Below, piece after piece: positions 5,247-21,675 of a stretch of DNA of 21,675 bases. The stretch's first letter is position 1; every line of letters starts with the position of its first letter. The translations under genes and the position numbers were made by a program. The notes under the pieces are model-generated. The model saw only the letters and a list, made by a program, of their open reading frames with translations, did not search any database and was not told the DNA's origin. Origin of the DNA: a virus; IMG/VR virus record IMGVR_UViG_3300042991_000454, positions 1 through 21,675 of that record, one strand, 5' to 3'.

Positions 5247-5479
5247 CAACATTCAGAGCAATGATTAGTAACAATACAGGTGTAAGCTCAAATAGATTTA
5301 TAAATGTATTAATGGTAGTATTTATGTTATTGGTAATGATATATGCCATATTTATACCAGTTGATATAGAAACATTAAAATTGGTTTTGGAGTATTCATT
5401 GTATATTTTTATTAGTTCACTTGGTACTAAATCTGTTGAGAAGATAACAGCACTGATTAAATCAAAATCGGGTCAATAA
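5243..5479 (+). CDS. holin-like small membrane protein, copy 2
   Basis: A 78-residue paralogue of the 4707-4964 protein, with the same two membrane segments (FINVLMVVFMLLVMIYAIFI and LEYSLYIFISSLGTK). The C-terminal tail is shorter and the region between helices differs (PVDIETLKLV against PVPIEILETV-like residues in copy 1). A 26-base run is identical between the copies (4857-4882 and 5393-5418), while codons elsewhere have diverged toward A/T-ending forms. It begins at an ATG coupled to the previous stop. Its stop codon overlaps the end of the convergent sigma gene by seven bases, so no terminator fits between them. The pair may work as holin/antiholin or as two holins. Confidence 0.6.
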   Translation: MTTFRAMISNNTGVSSNRFINVLMVVFMLLVMIYAIFIPVDIETLKLVLEYSLYIFISSLGTKSVEKITALIKSKSGQ

Positions 5480-6156
5480 TAATTATTTATACTAATAAAG
5501 TGTTGTCTATCATGCGCTGGTATATACTTATGATAAATCAATATATTGAAATTATTCACCAGACTTCTTTTAATCAATTCAGTAATATAAGGTAGTGCAG
5601 CACCTCTATTCACATCGAAATTTTTATATTTTTGGATTACGTGAAGATAAGCACCCATCATACAATCGTATTTATCATTCTCCGAATTATATGAAAACTT
5701 GCGTGTAACATTCTTACATATATCAAACAACATTCTCTCTAATTTATTTGTTATTTTACCACGACCTTGACTTATAATAATCTCATATAATAATTCGGTG
5801 TCAATTATATATATTTTAGATTTCTTTGGTTCAGATTTTAACTTAACTACTCTCTCTTTTTTAACTCTCTCTTTTTTCTCTTTTACTTTTTTTTCTTGAA
5901 AGTATAAATTCTCAAAACGCCAATCTTTTTTATCACCATTTTTATACATTAAGCGTTTTAATGGTAATTCTTTTGCGTGCATATAATAACAAAGTCTTGC
6001 GGCATCTGCACAAATATAATCAGATTTATTACAGATTACAGGAACAGTAGCTTTTACACTTTTACCCATATGTGAGAATAATTCACCTGTTGTTGGGTTA
6101 TAAGTCCAACCCTTTTCTATAAATAAATCATAATCTTTTACTCTTTCGGCTTTCAA
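5473..6156 (-). CDS. T4 gp55-like late sigma factor with degenerate HNH-like N-terminus
   Basis: Probable phage sigma factor for late transcription. The C-terminal part (YIIDTELLYEIIISQGRGKI ... MLFDICKNVTRKFSY ... KYDCMMGAYLHVIQKYKNFD ... GAALPYITELIKRSLVNNFN) follows the pattern of T4 gp55-like sigma region 2: a K-L-E/M helix, a core-binding helix with the FD...ALPYIT turn. The N-terminal part (about residues 12-88) aligns with the HNH domain at 1519-1959 (EKGWTYNPTTGELFS against EKGYTYDCESGHIYN; KKDWRFENLYF against NNKIDNLRN), but the His and the D-H-x-D residues are replaced, so it is probably DNA-binding only. The two parts are joined by a Lys/Glu-rich linker. The first ATG in frame is at 6216, which would overlap the upstream gene by 89 bases; a TTG at 6156 matches the start of the HNH relative and an A-rich leader, so it is preferred here. 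Confidence 0.7.
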   Translation of the reverse strand: MKAERVKDYDLFIEKGWTYNPTTGELFSHMGKSVKATVPVICNKSDYICADAARLCYYMHAKELPLKRLMYKNGDKKDWRFENLYFQEKKVKEKKERVKKERVVKLKSEPKKSKIYIIDTELLYEIIISQGRGKITNKLERMLFDICKNVTRKFSYNSENDKYDCMMGAYLHVIQKYKNFDVNRGAALPYITELIKRSLVNNFNILIYHKYIPAHDRQHFISINNYY

Positions 6157-6439
6157 TTTTAATATACTTTTTAATTTCGTGATTACCTTCTTCGTCAAGT
6201 ATATACAACATATCAATTGTTTGTTCTGTTTCGTGCATCACAAAGTATTGATTATCTGACATACATCTGGTCATAATCTCACTCATATCTTGTATCGTTA
6301 GACAATCACAAAGTTTATCAAAAAGGGAAAATTTTGAGATTTTTTGCATATAGTATATATAAAAAAGAGGATGTTCGACAACACCCTTTTTAAGGCCAAA
6401 ATAAGAATTTAAAATTTCAGATTTCCAGAGTGAAACCAT
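6128..6439 (-). CDS. unknown 103-aa protein
   Basis: A 103-residue protein of unknown family in the minus-strand operon between a 58-aa gene and the sigma gene. The start is an ATG at 6439 preceded by an A/T-rich leader; an internal Met at 6349 is an alternative. Visible features: two Cys-Asp rich segments (LCDCLTIQDMSEIMTRCMSDN), a helix-forming middle, and a basic C-terminus (KKYIKIESRKSKRL). The overlap with the sigma gene suggests translational coupling. It may be a partner of the sigma factor, but nothing in the sequence proves that. Confidence 0.55.
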   Translation of the reverse strand: MVSLWKSEILNSYFGLKKGVVEHPLFYIYYMQKISKFSLFDKLCDCLTIQDMSEIMTRCMSDNQYFVMHETEQTIDMLYILDEEGNHEIKKYIKIESRKSKRL

Positions 6440-6468: not shown

Positions 6469-6645
6469 TTATTCTTTTCTTTCATGTTTTAATAGTTCTT
6501 TTAATTCTTCTTCAAGTTCCTTATAGACATCAGAAAGAGCGGTTACATATTGATTACTCTTTGGTATATTATTCTCACGACAAGCAAAATTCAAAGCATC
6601 ATCATAGAATTTTAATCTTTCTATTATCTCTGAAACTTTATTCAT
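6469..6645 (-). CDS. unknown 58-aa helical protein
   Basis: The ATG at 6645 overlaps the TGA of the SSB-like gene (ATGA). The 58-codon frame encodes MNKVSEIIERLKFYDDALNF at the start, then a CRENN turn and a very acidic/basic helix ending ELEEELKELLKHERKE. The whole protein is predicted helical with a Leu/Ile-rich face, so it may form a small coiled coil or bind its neighbour. It fills the gap between two genes of the minus-strand operon, with coupling upstream, and the long antisense frame on the plus strand is its shadow. Function unknown. Confidence 0.6.
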   Translation of the reverse strand: MNKVSEIIERLKFYDDALNFACRENNIPKSNQYVTALSDVYKELEEELKELLKHERKE

Positions 6646-7391
6646 TTGCCATTAGCTAATTTTTCAAAATCAGTTTCATCATCATCATCTTCACCAAACA
6701 CTTCTGAACTACTAACAAACTTCATGTGTGTCTCGTTCGGGAAAAGTATTTCTTGATGATTGGTCATTTCAGAAAAAAGATGCTCCACGTAATCGCTGTA
6801 ATCCACCGATATTTTCTCGCCCTTCTTATTCTTAATCACTTCTACCATAGCATTTTGCGCTACTATGTCATACTTCCAATTAGCTTTTTTACCATCAATC
6901 ATAACAAGTACTGATGCATATCCAGCTTTATTCATATAAATCGTAACACTCATCTTTTCAATTATTTTATTACAACCTAAAAGTGAATTTTGTACACTTC
7001 TCATCACCTGACCATCACTAAAATTAATAATAAATAATACTTTCTTACCTTTAATTTCATTTATCAAGTGTAAATTCATAGTATTAATTTCTTTCTTTTC
7101 ATAAGTATAAGAACCCAATACTATTTTTACAGGCTTACCTTCAATTTGTGTAACATTTGTAGTGCTGTAGTGCTTCGGTACAAGACCGAGTAATGTCATA
7201 TCGAAATAAGCATTCTCTTTAAGTCGGGGTTTACACGCCCAAACCTGATCATAACCTGAATGTGTGCTTGTGTCAAATCCAAAATCTAACTCTTCATTAA
7301 TTTCTTGATTCGCAACTTCATTGTTCTCCAGTTCTTCACTGGTTTTCTCATCTAGAATTTCATCTAGCTCTTTTACTTTTTTAGTAACCAT
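6642..7391 (-). CDS. probable single-stranded-DNA-binding protein
   Basis: A 249-residue protein with a low-complexity acidic N-terminus (residues 1-40, ELDEILDEKTSEELENNE), a central beta-rich region (about 45-215) that alternates strands and basic/aromatic residues (VKIVLGSYTYEKKEIN, KGKKVLFIINFSDGQVMRS, MSVTIYMNKAGYASVLVMID) consistent with an OB fold, and an acidic C-terminal tail (EVFGEDDDDETDFEKL). The acidic tail is the hallmark of phage SSBs such as T7 gp2.5 and T4 gp32, where it contacts replication partners. It faces the replicase operon from a divergent position. The call is from architecture and neighbours, not from a motif. It is the first gene of the minus-strand operon; the ATG follows an A/T-rich leader. 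Confidence 0.5.
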   Translation of the reverse strand: MVTKKVKELDEILDEKTSEELENNEVANQEINEELDFGFDTSTHSGYDQVWACKPRLKENAYFDMTLLGLVPKHYSTTNVTQIEGKPVKIVLGSYTYEKKEINTMNLHLINEIKGKKVLFIINFSDGQVMRSVQNSLLGCNKIIEKMSVTIYMNKAGYASVLVMIDGKKANWKYDIVAQNAMVEVIKNKKGEKISVDYSDYVEHLFSEMTNHQEILFPNETHMKFVSSSEVFGEDDDDETDFEKLANGK

Positions 7392-7755: not shown

Positions 7756-8144
7756 GTAGTTGTGATAGTAACATGTTTGATGACATGTATGATGAGTTCA
7801 GTATTAAATGCAGAAGATGTGTGAGAAATAACTTTTCGGCTATTGATAATGATGAATGTGATGGTTATGATTGTTCTGTTTATAACGAAGAAAATGAGGG
7901 TTATTTATATGATGAAACTTTCGAAGATATGAATTATCATCCAACAGAAGAGGAGTCGAGATTGATAAAACAACAAGAAAGAGAAGAAAAACTCAAAGAG
8001 TTATCAAAACCTAAATCAAAAAGAAAAACAAATAAGCAACAAATGAGTGTTGAAGAAGCACTAGAAGAAGCACTAGAAGAAGCACTAGAAGAAGACATAT
8101 TCGATGAATTCTTCTCAAAAAATAATGAAGTAAATGATTTATGA
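7752..8144 (+). CDS. Cys-containing acidic protein with EALE repeats
   Basis: A 130-residue protein of unknown family. The N-terminus carries four Cys in CRRC and ECDGYDC arrangement (about residues 19-42), which could bind one zinc ion. The middle is acidic and Tyr-rich, then a basic stretch (KPKSKRKTNKQQ) and three tandem EALE units (residues about 102-113), encoded by three perfect 12-base repeats. The C-terminus is acidic (EDIFDEFFSKNNEVND). It is coupled on both sides (four-base overlap with the winged-helix gene, and its TGA overlaps the ATG of the replicase), so it is likely a partner in replication. It cannot be named further. Confidence 0.55.
   Translation: MSSCDSNMFDDMYDEFSIKCRRCVRNNFSAIDNDECDGYDCSVYNEENEGYLYDETFEDMNYHPTEEESRLIKQQEREEKLKELSKPKSKRKTNKQQMSVEEALEEALEEALEEDIFDEFFSKNNEVNDL
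8055..8090 (+). repeat. three tandem 12-base units in coding sequence
   Basis: GAAGCACTAGAA occurs three times head to tail without change, followed by a fourth unit that begins GAAG. In-frame, each unit codes for Glu-Ala-Leu-Glu, so unit gain or loss would keep the frame. Confidence 0.85.
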
Positions 8145-11100
8145 TATAGAATGTTTTAAGAACTTTTTCAGCATAACGTTGAAAGAGAAAGAAAAAGTGT
8201 ATCAGTATGTTTTACATAATGATATAGAAAAGAAAATGAGTAAAGACGATTTATTAGAACTTGTGAAAGGTGAAACACTAATCGGTTATAATAATAAACG
8301 ATACGATGATTTAATGTTAGATTTTTTTATAGATCGTGACATAGTAACAAATCAAGAGTTGAAAAAGTTTAATGACTACTTGTTTAAGACCGAAGAAAAT
8401 TGGTACATGATTAGACAAGAAAAAATAACACGACCAAGAAAGTTTGAGAGTATAGATTTGTTCAGAAGAAATCCGCTTGGTGAAAAACAATCTTTAAAAA
8501 TGTATGAACACTATAAAAGATTAAACAATATTTCTGAAACACCAGTCGATTTTCAATCTAATGTTAAAGATGAAGAAGTAGAACTTGTCTTACAATACAA
8601 TTTAGATGACGTTGTAGCTACTGAAATACTTTATGATGAAGTTACACCACTGCTTGAGTCTTTGACTGAATTAAGCAAAGAATATGATGTTAAAGATATA
8701 TTATCACAAACATCAGGTGGTATAGTTGATAAACTATTTAAGACTTTTAAATTTGAAAAGATACCACAAAAACTGATAATTGATTTAAAACAAAATATTG
8801 ACTTTACTATTAAAGATCAAGTGGTACTTGAACATCTAAATAAACTTCAAAACTATAATGTTAAAGAATATGATTTAACAGAAATCAAATCAGAAGTAAA
8901 AGAGAAAACTAAAATAAGAAGTGTTGAATATGACATTACAAGAGAATGTCAACCAAGTTTCACGGCTACAATTTTAAATGCAGAAATTCAATTCGGCATC
9001 GGTGGTTTACATTCAAACGTAGAACCATTAAATTTAACAGCTAATGATGATTATGCTATAATAGATTGTGATGTTAACGGTATGTATCCGAACGTTACGA
9101 TTAAACAAAAACTCACACCATTTTATTTTAGTAATAATGACAGAGAAACATTTCTGAAAGTATATCAAGAAATAATAGATAAGCGTGACATGCTAAAATC
9201 ACAAGGTTCAACACTTGAGCAATCATATAAACTTATAGCAAATACTTTAACTGGTAAGTTCAAAGAAATTAATTCTATATTATATGATCCAAGTTGTCAT
9301 ATCAAGATTTGTACTTATGGTCAGTATTTTCTATTCAGTGTACTCGAACAAGTTGAACAATATGTTGACACTATCTGTCAAGTGAATACTGATGGTTTTA
9401 CATTATATGTGAGAAGAGAATATTTGAAAGATATCGAAAATGTTTTAAATAACACAAAAGATATTAAATGGAAAGTAAAACACTTCAAGAAATTCATCAG
9501 TCAGAATTGTAATAACTATGTTGCACTTACTGATAAAGACGAAGTAAAACCGAAAGGTGCTATGTTTAATATAGAAACATATTCTAAGCCACAAATCATT
9601 AAAATATCACTGATGGATTATCTATTGTTTGATAAAGATATTGAACAATCTGTTTCTGAATGCAAAGATATTTATGATTTTTTATTTGTGCATAAGTCAA
9701 GTAAAAGTTTAACAATTGGTGATGAACCATTCATGGGTAAGATTATTAGATTTTATAAATCAAAATCAGGTCATACAATTAAGTCAAATAACAATCAAAT
9801 ACCTAACGGTGATAATGCAGTTGAACAAAACAAAATAGATCAATCAAAATTATCTGATGTTGATTTGCAATTCTATATTAATGAAACAAAGAAACAAGTC
9901 ACTACAATTGTTGGTCACGAACATCAAGATGTAGTTAATCTATTTGCTGAATATAATATTCTGTTGTGTGGTAAAACTGGTCTTAAACAGAAAGACGGAA
10001 CAACTCTGTTTAAAGGTTCAGCTAATAAAGGTCAATACTTATATTCATATGAAACTATTGGTATTGATATGATAGAATACCCTCAATTAATGTATGTTGA
10101 TATAGATCATATAGCAAATGAACACAGATTAATTATTGATATGTGTTTAAGTGCTAATACAATTTATAGTACTTCTGATGTTAATAAAGATAGTTATAGA
10201 TTTTTCTTTAAGAACAATACTGATATCACTGGTAATTACAGATGGCAGAATAAAGATAAAGAAACATCTTTTGAAATCTGGAACAGCATCGGAAATAAAG
10301 TATCTATATCAGGCACAAAACGTAAAGATGAGTTCAATGAAGTAATTGAGAGATACATAATCGTTAATGATACGTTGCAAACATTTCCGATTGATTTACT
10401 TGATTGGGTAAAAGCAAACCCACCAAGCAATGTAAAGAGTGCTGTTAAAAAACAAACTATAAAAAAGATAGATACAAAGATGAATTATAATGAACAAATT
10501 GAACAATTATTTGAATTAATTAAAGATAAATATAAAGTAGAACTAACAGAGAAAAAAGGTGAGAAGTCTATAACCTTTAATGCACCGCCTGATTGGTATG
10601 AACTGACTGGTGGCTGGCGTGATAGTCTTGTCTTATTACAGAAAACAACTTCAAAAACATTTGATATACATTTTCATTCTTATACAGGATCATTTTCTGA
10701 ACAAGATAAAGAAAGATTATATAATGAACTTTCAAAATATTTTGAAAATGGTTTAGTAAAACAATCTGAAAATAGATTACAAGATGTTGTAAATCAATTA
10801 GTTAGTTCTGTGAACAATCCTAATATTGTGAATACTAATACTTTACAAAAAGAAGAATTAGATGATGATGATGAAAAAATATTAGAAAAGTCACCTGTAA
10901 TACCGAAGTTTGTTTATGATAATTTACCAGAAATGTTAAAAGAAATGTGTAGTAAATTTAATAATAATAGAGAGAAAGATGTTTTATTAACTGCTGTATT
11001 AGCAACAACGAGTAGTATGTTATCAGAATGCTATGGTATATACTTTAAAACAACTATTTACCCGAACATATATACATTTGTAAGTGCTGGTGCTGGTAAT

Positions 11101-12168
11101 TTGAAAGGTTCAGCAAAATTTGCGTTTGACTTGACTTATAGATTGAGAACTGAAATGCACAATGAATACTTGAGAGAGAAGTTAATATTTGAAGCAGAAG
11201 AGAAGAATAAGAAATTAGAGTCACCGAAAGAGAAAACATTAAAGATTGCTGGTAATTCATCTGCTGCTACATTTTTACAGAAACTAGAGAGAAACGTTGG
11301 TAATGGTCTTATATTTGAGCAAGAGGCTGATGCAATAGTTGAAGCATTTAAAAAAGAATGGGGTAATTATGATGAAATGTTACGCAAAGCGTTTCAACAT
11401 GAATATCTTGATAGTGATAGAATGACATATAATATAGCAATTGATAAACCAAAGTTATCTATATTTGTGTCTGGTACACCCGCACAATTGTTTAGTTTGA
11501 TTAAATCATCAGAGAATGGTCTATTTAGTAGATTTTTCTATTATATATTTCAAAGTGAAAGTAAGTATTTAGATCCGTTTGAAGATGATGAAGTTGATTT
11601 TCATCAATATTTTAGAGATAAATCAAATATCATTTATGATTTCTATAAATATTATCAAGAAAATCCTGTGAAATTGAAATTATCATCTGAACAGAAAATA
11701 ATATTTAATAATAGAATAGGATTTATGTTTAATGATTTAAGAGATAGACATGAAGGTGCAGATATTGAGAGTGCTGTGAAGCGTTTGGGTACTATGACAT
11801 TTAAATTATTAATTCTGTTTAGTTGTATTACTAACTTTGAAAATAAGAAGAAATACGATGGTATATTAGAAGTTAATAATGTTGATCTAGAAGTAGTATT
11901 ACAAATTGTAGAAACATACTCACAACACATGGAAATCATTTATGTGAACTTGTCGAAACAAGAGAATATAAAGTTCAAAAGTAATCCGATAGATAAACTT
12001 ACTACATTTATAATGTCACAAACTGGATCTTTCACAAGAGAATTAATAGTACAACAAACTAAAAATTTAGGTAAAAGTGAAAGTACCGCAGATAAAGAAA
12101 TAAGAAAATTAAAGAAGAAGAACAAGATAAAAAATATTGATAGATTTCATTATATCGTTGTTAAATAA
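8134..12168 (+). CDS. multidomain replication protein: exonuclease-family B DNA polymerase-VirE-N/primase-like-DUF3987 helicase-like
   Basis: A 1344-residue protein that seems to hold most replisome activities. Exonuclease: D4-x-E6, N54/Y57/D58 (YNNKRYDD) and Y155-xxx-D159 (YNLDD) give all three motifs. Polymerase B: motif A D313-xxxx-Y318-P319, motif B K366-xxx-N370-xxx-G374, motif C VNTDG with catalytic Asp420 and Asn in place of the first Asp. About residues 590-790 resemble VirE-N/BT4734 primase-like domains (QLMYVDIDH at about 650, then TIYSTSDVNKDSYRFFF). Residues 910-1270 look like DUF3987, a RecA-like helicase-type domain, with an atypical nucleotide loop (SAGAGNLKGSAK) and FEQEAD as the Walker B candidate. 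A basic winged-helix tail follows (1275-1344). It starts at an ATG coupled to the previous stop; its stop lies at the edge of an inverted repeat. No inteins or frameshift were seen. Domain limits and the helicase and primase activities are inferred. Confidence 0.8.
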   Translation: MIYDIECFKNFFSITLKEKEKVYQYVLHNDIEKKMSKDDLLELVKGETLIGYNNKRYDDLMLDFFIDRDIVTNQELKKFNDYLFKTEENWYMIRQEKITRPRKFESIDLFRRNPLGEKQSLKMYEHYKRLNNISETPVDFQSNVKDEEVELVLQYNLDDVVATEILYDEVTPLLESLTELSKEYDVKDILSQTSGGIVDKLFKTFKFEKIPQKLIIDLKQNIDFTIKDQVVLEHLNKLQNYNVKEYDLTEIKSEVKEKTKIRSVEYDITRECQPSFTATILNAEIQFGIGGLHSNVEPLNLTANDDYAIIDCDVNGMYPNVTIKQKLTPFYFSNNDRETFLKVYQEIIDKRDMLKSQGSTLEQSYKLIANTLTGKFKEINSILYDPSCHIKICTYGQYFLFSVLEQVEQYVDTICQVNTDGFTLYVRREYLKDIENVLNNTKDIKWKVKHFKKFISQNCNNYVALTDKDEVKPKGAMFNIETYSKPQIIKISLMDYLLFDKDIEQSVSECKDIYDFLFVHKSSKSLTIGDEPFMGKIIRFYKSKSGHTIKSNNNQIPNGDNAVEQNKIDQSKLSDVDLQFYINETKKQVTTIVGHEHQDVVNLFAEYNILLCGKTGLKQKDGTTLFKGSANKGQYLYSYETIGIDMIEYPQLMYVDIDHIANEHRLIIDMCLSANTIYSTSDVNKDSYRFFFKNNTDITGNYRWQNKDKETSFEIWNSIGNKVSISGTKRKDEFNEVIERYIIVNDTLQTFPIDLLDWVKANPPSNVKSAVKKQTIKKIDTKMNYNEQIEQLFELIKDKYKVELTEKKGEKSITFNAPPDWYELTGGWRDSLVLLQKTTSKTFDIHFHSYTGSFSEQDKERLYNELSKYFENGLVKQSENRLQDVVNQLVSSVNNPNIVNTNTLQKEELDDDDEKILEKSPVIPKFVYDNLPEMLKEMCSKFNNNREKDVLLTAVLATTSSMLSECYGIYFKTTIYPNIYTFVSAGAGNLKGSAKFAFDLTYRLRTEMHNEYLREKLIFEAEEKNKKLESPKEKTLKIAGNSSAATFLQKLERNVGNGLIFEQEADAIVEAFKKEWGNYDEMLRKAFQHEYLDSDRMTYNIAIDKPKLSIFVSGTPAQLFSLIKSSENGLFSRFFYYIFQSESKYLDPFEDDEVDFHQYFRDKSNIIYDFYKYYQENPVKLKLSSEQKIIFNNRIGFMFNDLRDRHEGADIESAVKRLGTMTFKLLILFSCITNFENKKKYDGILEVNNVDLEVVLQIVETYSQHMEIIYVNLSKQENIKFKSNPIDKLTTFIMSQTGSFTRELIVQQTKNLGKSESTADKEIRKLKKKNKIKNIDRFHYIVVK

Positions 12169-13851: not shown

Positions 13852-13855
<4 letters not shown>

Positions 13856-14424
13856 AAGATAGAAGTTCACAACAAAGAGAATATAAAAAATTACATAAAG
13901 ATAGATTAAAAATACAAAGTGATATTTGGAATAAGAATAAAGGTTCTGAATATGTAATTTGGAAATCTATGAAACAAAGATGTTTAAATCCTAATTCACA
14001 AGCATATACTAATTATGGGGATAGAGGTATAAATATTTCTGATAATTTTTTAAATTATGATTATTTTTTAGTATATATAAAATCTTTACCTAATTATGGG
14101 GTAAAAGACTATACATTAGATAGAATAGATGTTAATTATGGTTACGTTGAAGGAAATTTAAGATGGGTTGATAGACATATACAAGCGGTAAATAGAAGAA
14201 AAAAATCAACAAACACAACAGGATATACTGGTATTAGTATAGATAAGAAGACTGGTAAATTTAAAAGTTATATAGGTATTAGAAATAAATTGAAACATTT
14301 AGGTTATTATGAAAGTTTGGAAGCCGCAATAAATATCAGAAATAAATATATATTAGAAAATAAATTAGAAGAATATAAACTACAAACATATATTGAACCA
14401 CCAAAAAACGATCAGAATGAATAG
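13852..14424 (+). CDS. HNH homing-type endonuclease with AP2 domain
   Basis: A 190-residue free-standing HNH-AP2 endonuclease. The N-terminus is basic (SSQQREYKKLHKDR); the core (about residues 35-110) has WKSMKQRCLNPNSQAYTNYG, then YTLDRIDVNYGYVEGNLRW, the L-D-R-I-D-x-x-x-x-Y-x-x-x-N-L-R-W signature of phage HNH enzymes, with DRHIQAVNRRKK after it. The AP2 part follows (GYTGISIDKKTGKFKSYIGI to LEAAINIRNKYI). It is inserted between the small and large terminase genes with stop-start contact on both sides, a common position for such selfish elements. It is a different subtype from the HNH at 1519-1959. Confidence 0.85.
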
Positions 14425-16154: not shown

Positions 16155-16498
16155 ATTTAGATAAAAAATTAGATTTAATTTGGGCAAACACAATTAAGAA
16201 AAAAGGTGAATGTGAATATTGTGGTGCGACTACTTATTTAAATGCTCATCATTTATTCTCACGCTCGAATAGAACTTTAAGATGGGACTTAAATAATGGA
16301 ATTTGTTTGTGTTCAAGTCATCATGCGTTGAATAGTTCTTTTTCTGCACATAAAGCACCTTTAGAGTTTCATTTTTGGTTAATTGATTATAAAGGTTTAG
16401 ATTTTATAAATGATTTAAGAGAAGCTGCAAAAGAAAAGTTCACAATGAAAAAGAAAGACAAAGAAGAACTATTTAAAAAATTAAGTAATGAGTTTTAA
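16151..16498 (+). CDS. HNH endonuclease next to the terminase
   Basis: A 115-residue HNH protein with a zinc-ribbon-like beginning: CEYCGATTYLNAHHLFSRSN, then LNNGICLCSSHHALNSSFSAH. CxxC and CxxxHH sites can hold a structural zinc, and HH plus N..I.LC..HH form the HNH core. Phages often carry such a gene near terminase, where HNH proteins help DNA packaging cleavage. The start is a TTG overlapping the previous TGA; no ATG is available at this spot. Its TAA overlaps the ATG of the sigma gene by one base. It lacks an AP2 domain and so differs from the two homing-type HNH genes. Confidence 0.8.
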   Translation: MNLDKKLDLIWANTIKKKGECEYCGATTYLNAHHLFSRSNRTLRWDLNNGICLCSSHHALNSSFSAHKAPLEFHFWLIDYKGLDFINDLREAAKEKFTMKKKDKEELFKKLSNEF

Positions 16499-17019
16499 TG
16501 ACACCTACCTCAAACGATATATTTGTGTATAAACTCTATTTAAGAGAAGATGAGCTAAAGAAGATTTGTAATTATTATCGTGTATTCGGTTATGATGCAG
16601 AAGATATAATTCAAGAATGTTATTTGAAGTTGTTGACGTTTCCTTTCATCAATCGTTATGAACTACCTTCGGGAGAGCCGAATATAAATGTAATATTCTC
16701 AATCATTCGAAATCTCATTGTCGATTTTAAAAAGAGAGAGACAAATTTTATAGCTGATGAGATTTTTGATATAATTGAAATTGAAGAAGAAGAGAGTAAA
16801 GAAGAAATGTTTCAAACGATTTACACAGAAATTGATAATCTACCAGAGAAAACACGAACAGAGTGGTTCGACAAACAAATCATTCGACTTTATGTTGAAG
16901 AAGCACACACAATTCGCTCATTAGAAAAAGTAACAAGAATTAATCGTTCGACAATACAACCTATAATTCATCAGTTCAAAACTACACTTAAAGTCAAAGT
17001 CAAAAAAGGTGATTTGTAG
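16498..17019 (+). CDS. ECF-like sigma-70 family factor
   Basis: A 173-residue protein with sigma region 2 (ELKKICNYYRVFGYDAEDII, then QECYLKLLTF), the DIIQE core-binding and -10 recognition element, and region 4 (RTEWFDKQIIRLYVEEAHTI, RSLEKVTRINRSTIQPIIHQ), a helix-turn-helix for the -35 box. Between them lies an acidic linker (DEIFDIIEIEEEESKEE), which can act as a region 3-like spacer. It belongs to the packaging operon, so it could extend late transcription into the tail genes. With the gp55-like protein at 5473-6156, the phage has two candidate sigma factors. Confidence 0.7.
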   Translation: MTPTSNDIFVYKLYLREDELKKICNYYRVFGYDAEDIIQECYLKLLTFPFINRYELPSGEPNINVIFSIIRNLIVDFKKRETNFIADEIFDIIEIEEEESKEEMFQTIYTEIDNLPEKTRTEWFDKQIIRLYVEEAHTIRSLEKVTRINRSTIQPIIHQFKTTLKVKVKKGDL

Positions 17020-20816: not shown

Positions 20817-21675
20817 ATGTCACTAACACTACATACACAACCAATTGGAATTTGTTATTCGAGAACACCGATTATGTATAGATATTCAGGCTGTGAACTT
20901 GATAACTTTTATAATTTTTACTTTTATATCACAACAGGAACATCTACTTCATTCTATAATATACACATCAGTATAAATAGACAGGTTGATATGCAGTCGG
21001 GTTTAACTTTTGATGTTTCAAGTATTCTTTCAGATTATATAGAAAACAATCTTGATTACACAAATGAAAATATAATATACTTTAAATCAGTACTTTATGA
21101 ATACGGTACTGGTAATACTTTCATTCAAACAATAGAAAGTGATGCAGCATTAGCCACACTTGGATATGTGTTCACACAACCAAATACACTTATTAAAACA
21201 GCAGCAGTAAAACAAGTTGATTTTTCAACAAATGATTTAGATGCTTTTGATTATCGTGGCGGTTCGAGTGAATATGAAATCTCTGATGTTGCATACGCTT
21301 CAAGAGAACTTGCACTGATGGGAACATTCGTATCAGGTACAACAGGTCACACATATGCTTATGGTGGGTATGTTGTTTTGCGTGATAAAAATGATATATA
21401 CAACAGAGCTATAAAAATGTTAACACTCGCTGTTACATTTGATTATCCTACATACGCTCAATGTGAGAGTGATGGTGGAGAAGCACTTATAGATAACTTC
21501 ACAGGTGGTTTAAATGAATATCCTGATTATCAAGCGTCTATAATACCACACACAAATAGAAATGCTGCACTTTACGGTGATTTTTCTGACATATTTGCTG
21601 GTTATCGTATATACACTGGTCTTACAGACGGTACATATTATGTAGCTGACCGTGATAAAAATGACACAGATAATG
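20817..21675 (+). CDS. tail protein with shared N-terminal module (partial, runs off the end)
   Basis: An open frame from ATG 20817 to the end of the window, 286 codons with no stop. The first 120 residues match the N-terminal module of the 19091-20797 protein (YSRTPIMYRY against YARSPILYKF; TFDVSSILSDYIENNLDYTN against its SNLVYTYL; ENIIYFKSVLYEY; LGYV). After residue about 125 it diverges into a different domain (DFSTNDLDAFDYRGGSSEYE and so on) without Thr linkers. Probably another tail-attached baseplate or fibre protein. It follows an A-rich leader 19 bases after the previous stop. The full size and end are not visible. Confidence 0.7.
   Translation, partial: MSLTLHTQPIGICYSRTPIMYRYSGCELDNFYNFYFYITTGTSTSFYNIHISINRQVDMQSGLTFDVSSILSDYIENNLDYTNENIIYFKSVLYEYGTGNTFIQTIESDAALATLGYVFTQPNTLIKTAAVKQVDFSTNDLDAFDYRGGSSEYEISDVAYASRELALMGTFVSGTTGHTYAYGGYVVLRDKNDIYNRAIKMLTLAVTFDYPTYAQCESDGGEALIDNFTGGLNEYPDYQASIIPHTNRNAALYGDFSDIFAGYRIYTGLTDGTYYVADRDKNDTDN

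Follow-up and report, generated by a model that had tools for sequence, protein, structure and literature searches.

The virus record analyzed here (IMGVR_UViG_3300042991_000454; 21,675 bases, all of which constitute the window) contains on its plus strand one long open reading frame for a protein of 1344 aa. In it, a family-B DNA polymerase (PolB) with a 3'-5' exonuclease is followed by an AEP-like (primase-like) middle and by a DUF3987 part (Table 1). Besides this ORF, no other recognizable replication enzymes were found in the 21.7-kb record, which comes from a small uncultured virus, probably of Bacteroidota.

Integrity of the fusion and other genes of the record

The first-pass annotation had described a single fusion protein encoded in one frame, and this description was borne out. 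The frame is unbroken and its composition is uniform, with GC values of 0.276, 0.280 and 0.277 and GC3 values of 0.195, 0.174 and 0.198 over the three parts, and no compositional step was seen along the gene, which argues against an assembly chimera. It is true that the fusion is known from a single sequence in one metagenomic contig and that a second copy was not found, as in the case of two genes merged during assembly. However, a chance join would have had to keep 1344 codons open, preserve the even composition and pair two functionally matched genes, in such a way that we consider this artefact highly improbable.

When positions 1-120 and 21500-21675 were compared, the two ends shared no exact repeat of 15-30 bases. 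The last ORF of the record runs off the contig end, which would fit either an incomplete record or a permuted genome cut at that point.

As regards the other genes, the minus strand (6642-7391) encodes a protein of 249 aa whose tail (GEDDDDETDFEKL) is very acidic and which has no family match; as a guess from its sequence, it might be a single-stranded-DNA-binding protein that would complete the replication set. Two HNH/AP2-type endonuclease genes (1519-1959 and 13852-14424, plus strand), one of them lying between the genes for the small and the large terminase, are likely homing endonucleases. A sigma-factor-like protein (phrog_1740, E = 2.5e-9) is encoded at 16498-17019 on the plus strand, and two overlapping frames on the minus strand (5473-6439), with weak HNH and late-sigma-factor similarity, are possibly one frameshifted gene, or two genes.

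Table 1. Features of the 1344-aa reading frame (positions in the window; residues in the protein).
Feature	Positions	Strand	Basis or remark
Whole ORF, PolB - AEP-like middle - DUF3987	8134-12168	+	ATG start, 1344 aa, one unbroken frame
Family-B DNA polymerase with 3'-5' exonuclease, residues 1-600	8134-9933	+	phrog_1252, 7-PolB alignment, PolB structures
Exonuclease motif I YDIEC, D4 and E6, from residue 3	8140-8154	+	Invariant columns
Exonuclease motif II YNNKRYD, N53 and D58, from residue 52	8287-8307	+	Invariant columns
Exonuclease motif III YNLDD, Y155 and D159	8596-8610	+	Invariant columns
PolB motif A DVNGMYP, D313	9070-9090	+	Invariant
PolB motif B K366..N370..G374	9229-9258	+	Invariant
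PolB motif C NTDG, from residue 418, D420	9385-9396	+	Invariant
Probable AEP (primase-like) domain, residues ~601-789	9934-10500	+	Triad pattern, partial threaded model
Candidate AEP motif I MYVDIDH, D656 and D658	10090-10110	+	
Candidate AEP motif II TIYSTSDVNKDSYRFFF, R689	10159-10209	+	His in AEPs, Lys in BT4734-like proteins
Candidate AEP motif III FEIWNSIGNKV, E714	10270-10302	+	
Linker or possible accessory segment in the PriCT position, residues ~790-905	10501-10848	+	PriCT-1 site of relatives
DUF3987 AAA+ motor and C-terminal helix-turn-strand tail, residues ~906-1344	10849-12165	+	Pfam, AF2, Foldseek
Walker A AGAGNLKGSA, K991	11086-11115	+	Leu990 in place of a Gly kept in >90% of the alignment
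Walker B IFEQEAD, E1062 and E1064	11311-11331	+	Acidic residues invariant in DUF3987 alignment
SGTPAQ, sensor-like strand	11470-11487	+	Kept in DUF3987 relatives
SRFFYY, R1133	11527-11544	+	Arg invariant in 65 sequences

The polymerase and DUF3987 parts

The family phrog_1252 (DNA polymerase) matched residues 2-598 with E = 1.1e-104, and, among PDB entries, a profile of this part reached archaeal PolB enzymes as well as Pol II of E. coli. In an alignment of the 1344-aa protein with seven phage PolBs, the catalytic columns of exonuclease motifs I-III and of PolB motifs A-C, all of them recognized at first pass, were invariant in every sequence. The assignment of polymerase and exonuclease to residues 1-600, drawn from sequence comparison, is well supported. 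By tblastn, 925 phage records carry the polymerase part. A protein-primed polymerase was also considered. Phi29-type enzymes carry TPR1/TPR2 insertions, and with the motif distances of phi29 as reference, the 53 residues from motif A to B and the 54 from B to C leave no space for them, so this type was rejected.

At the other end of the protein, Pfam DUF3987 (PF13148) matched residues 1023-1270 with E = 5.6e-41 and 141.4 bits (curated cut-off, 27 bits), and homology to DUF3987 relatives spans residues ~900-1340. This part was modelled by AlphaFold2 with a pLDDT of ~95. A Foldseek search against the PDB gave 220 matches with E<=1e-3 (best E = 1.5e-7), and the 50 matches listed were, without exception, chains of MCM replicative helicases. 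The sequence identity of these matches was 9-14% and their TM was low (0.27/0.30), the latter at least partly because the query held the unmodelled middle. No MCM chain was matched when a profile of the DUF3987 alignment was compared with PDB sequences, and the viral neighbours of this part are DUF3987 and primase/polymerase phage proteins. The DUF3987-like segment of the first-pass annotation is thus upheld by the Pfam score, the confident model and the MCM-type neighbours. The C-terminal helix-turn-strand tail may be a winged helix.

DUF3987 was predicted by Kazlauskas et al. in 2018 to be a primase-associated helicase, substituting for MCM, RepA or DnaB (PMC5862659), and the MCM-like fold predicted here agrees with that proposal. 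In the literature searched, no paper was found that names MCM AAA+ motors as the solved structures nearest to the predicted fold of DUF3987. MCM2-7 and archaeal MCM AAA+ helicases are the nearest solved folds, a likeness that we do not extend to membership. A helicase-like C-terminus is well supported, and from it we infer a helicase activity. This part could alternatively be an initiator, a loader or a DNA-binding ATPase with no processive helicase role, its activity perhaps being weakened by Leu990, which occupies the place of the conserved Gly before the Walker Lys; in addition, no biochemically assayed DUF3987 protein was found in our literature search. Nevertheless, Lys991, the Walker B acids and Arg1133 are retained, a relative from IMG/VR (L011) has Phe at the position of Leu990, and the PDB neighbours are MCM motors; we regard such a non-helicase role as unlikely.

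The middle part and the primase question

By eye, the middle (residues ~600-905) shows VDID, then SYRFFF, strand-forming and preceded by a Ser/Thr-rich turn, and then FEIW before a G..V strand. This is the order of AEP motifs I (hhhDhD/E), II (sxH) and III (hD/E), with Arg for His in motif II. When the middle was shuffled 20,000 times, a regular expression for this triad matched 26 of the shuffles; among the 968 ORFs of the examined loci it matched 10 other ORFs, nine of which have recognizable AEP-type motifs (eight BT4734-like by eye, plus L173, whose Prim-Pol domain was confirmed with Pfam). As the pattern was composed after the motifs had been seen, misses some true Prim-Pols and matches outside the primase domain in the replicase GP55 (described below), the triad is suggestive only.

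Homology searches did not sustain the VirE-N/BT4734-like segment that the first-pass annotation had placed at residues 560-800, for which the AEP-like triad and the domain-order context are what is left. The middle had no match in Pfam, PHROG, NCBIfam or PDB sequences, none to PF08800 (BT4734-like_N) up to E = 10, none in the scan of IMG/VR with short exact patterns, and among phages a single tblastn match, at E = 10. BT4734 profiles of 4 and 42 sequences gave no match or chance level, and a Prim-Pol profile and pairwise alignment were also at chance; motif I alone, in a hand-picked window, beat 200 shuffles against the BT4734 profile. Since 8 of 60 shuffles and 4 of 40 unrelated ORFs match as many BT4734-conserved columns as the middle does (17 of 52), a good-looking MAFFT alignment with BT4734 does not count as evidence. 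A PriCT similarity at residues 775-880 was unsupported on testing and was rejected.

Structure prediction, which had been proposed as a check, was confident for residues ~906-1344 but not for the middle, where the pLDDT was mostly below 50. When threaded on BT4734 sequences, the middle reached a mean of 56, and only the first beta-alpha-beta-beta unit, which holds motifs I-II, was confident (pLDDT ~75-89). A fold search with the middle gave ferredoxin-like matches only, and these were non-significant.

From its sequence features, the middle would most likely consist of a primase core of the AEP type and an accessory segment behind it, a reading that we prefer because the relatives of both joined parts suggest an AEP at this place. 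The absence of significant AEP homology, the change of the motif II His to Arg and the low-confidence fold would also fit a fusion of PolB and helicase with no primase, in which the middle would serve as a spacer with a structural or DNA-binding role (either a degenerate AEP or another domain), the primers being supplied by the host or by transcripts. Against this spacer, which seems rather unlikely to us, D656/D658 and E714 stand in the correct order and spacing, and both parent families show the AEP-ATPase domain order.

Relatives of the fusion protein and its proposed function

A genome scan confirmed 554 DUF3987 relatives, of which the best 80 were all from Bacteroidota, and no related PolB was found at the loci of these best 80. 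According to Pfam, two relatives (L017 and L021) have BT4734-like_N, PriCT-1 and DUF3987 in one chain, and a third (L018), cut by the contig end, has PriCT-2 and DUF3987. Bacteroidota proteins of the BT4734-like_N type, such as L021 and L017, share with the 1344-aa protein a homologous DUF3987 C-terminus (phmmer E-values as low as 2e-70 and identities of 33-37%) and the order of primase then ATPase, but they are ~750 aa long and have no polymerase, and their BT4734 domain is without detectable homology to the middle. The DUF3987 protein of L011 (positions 2-1486) adjoins terminase genes and has a Walker A, DAASFKGK, without Gly before the Lys; it may belong to a similar fusion, its contig stopping before the N-terminus.

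With respect to the polymerase, the PolB ORFs of the 80 nearest IMG/VR loci retrieved are all stand-alone, with 786 residues at most, and no ORF at these loci showed similarity to residues 590-1344. The stand-alone PolBs of phrog_1252 from PHS21, RcSpartan and the crAss-like cr272_1 are homologous over residues 2-598 and have identical catalytic residues, but stop at ~600-720 aa, primase and helicase being encoded in separate genes. A separate primase gene lies near PolB in the phages PHS21, AL and Vibrio LP.1. At L173, PolB is directly followed, in the same order and strand, by a gene for Prim-Pol, PriCT-1 and a D5-like helicase, and the PolB relatives of L122 and L133 are paired with primase-helicases of the Toprim-DnaB type.

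The same fusion, for which a search in other Bacteroidota phages had been suggested, was not found in phage records, at the 80 PolB loci or at the best 80 DUF3987 loci, and among 50,697 records no phage covered 80% of the protein; since the collection scans used short exact patterns, the lack of further copies is no proof of absence. Residues 1-899 gave six weak matches only in 396 Bacteroidota genomes. One of them, to the middle region, fell in a RelA/SpoT-type protein and was rejected as chance, and the other five, partial and in the polymerase region, were read as cellular PolB-type proteins.

A comparable protein is GP55 of the lactococcal phage 1706, a 1317-aa "four-in-one replicase" composed of helicase, AEP primase, alpha-helical domain and PolB, with all four activities demonstrated and over 1000 homologues (NAR 2025, PMC12205980). 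The first-pass annotation, which knew of no characterized example, is therefore right for the PolB-first order but not for this kind of fusion. Both proteins, of similar size, join helicase (predicted in ours), AEP primase (probable in ours), PolB and 3'-5' exonuclease in one chain, and the PolB of GP55 shows remote homology to ours, with hmmsearch E = 1.6e-28 for one sequence and an hhalign probability of 99. By contrast, the order SF3 helicase-PriS-aHD-PolB of GP55 is reversed in the 1344-aa protein (PolB-middle-ATPase), the SF3 helicase has no detectable sequence relation to the DUF3987 part (E = 0.086 for the DUF3987 profile against GP55), and primase activity is demonstrated for GP55 only, ours being a predicted primase. 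By analogy, the 1344-aa protein may work like GP55, with a different architecture. The Pol of Pyrovirus OS3173 (DUF927-exo-PolA, 1606 aa) is a further precedent of a fused replicase, and in it, as in Plasmodium Pfprex, a primase/helicase-like part is covalently linked to an exonuclease-polymerase (PMC7689252). In these two the polymerase is of family A and the helicase-like part is N-terminal (DUF927 in Pyrovirus), and Pfprex is proteolytically processed.

We propose, with a probability of roughly two in three, that the product of this gene is a phage replicase that comes close to being self-contained, with a PolB/exonuclease, an AEP-type primase middle and an MCM-like motor. By homology, residues 1-600 would perform primer extension and proofreading, the middle (~600-905) would lay the primers through its AEP-type core and accessory segment, and the DUF3987 part (residues ~906-1344), an AAA+ motor whose predicted fold is MCM-like, would move on the DNA and unwind it ahead of the polymerase. 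Speculatively, the protein probably acts as an oligomer, in which the C-terminal motor would be a platform tethering several polymerase and primase heads. It would most likely have originated when two adjacent genes with coupled functions were joined, one for a PolB of phrog_1252 and the other for an AEP-PriCT-ATPase primase-helicase of mobile elements.

We lean slightly towards considering that this protein, as PolB-AEP-DUF3987, represents a second class of phage replisome in a single chain, assembled independently of GP55, with the opposite order and with an MCM-like motor in place of an SF3 helicase; if true, one-protein replisome fusions have evolved more than once. If its activities are demonstrated, the protein would help to assign a function to DUF3987, formally a domain of unknown function, for which the MCM-like predicted fold offers a direct test. 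Of practical interest, as was pointed out for GP55, is the de novo amplification of DNA with no primers added. On the same condition, the 1344-aa protein and GP55 would be two one-chain replisomes of inverse order, from whose comparison the minimal needs of a replication fork, and the cooperation of polymerase, primase and motor in it, could be learned.
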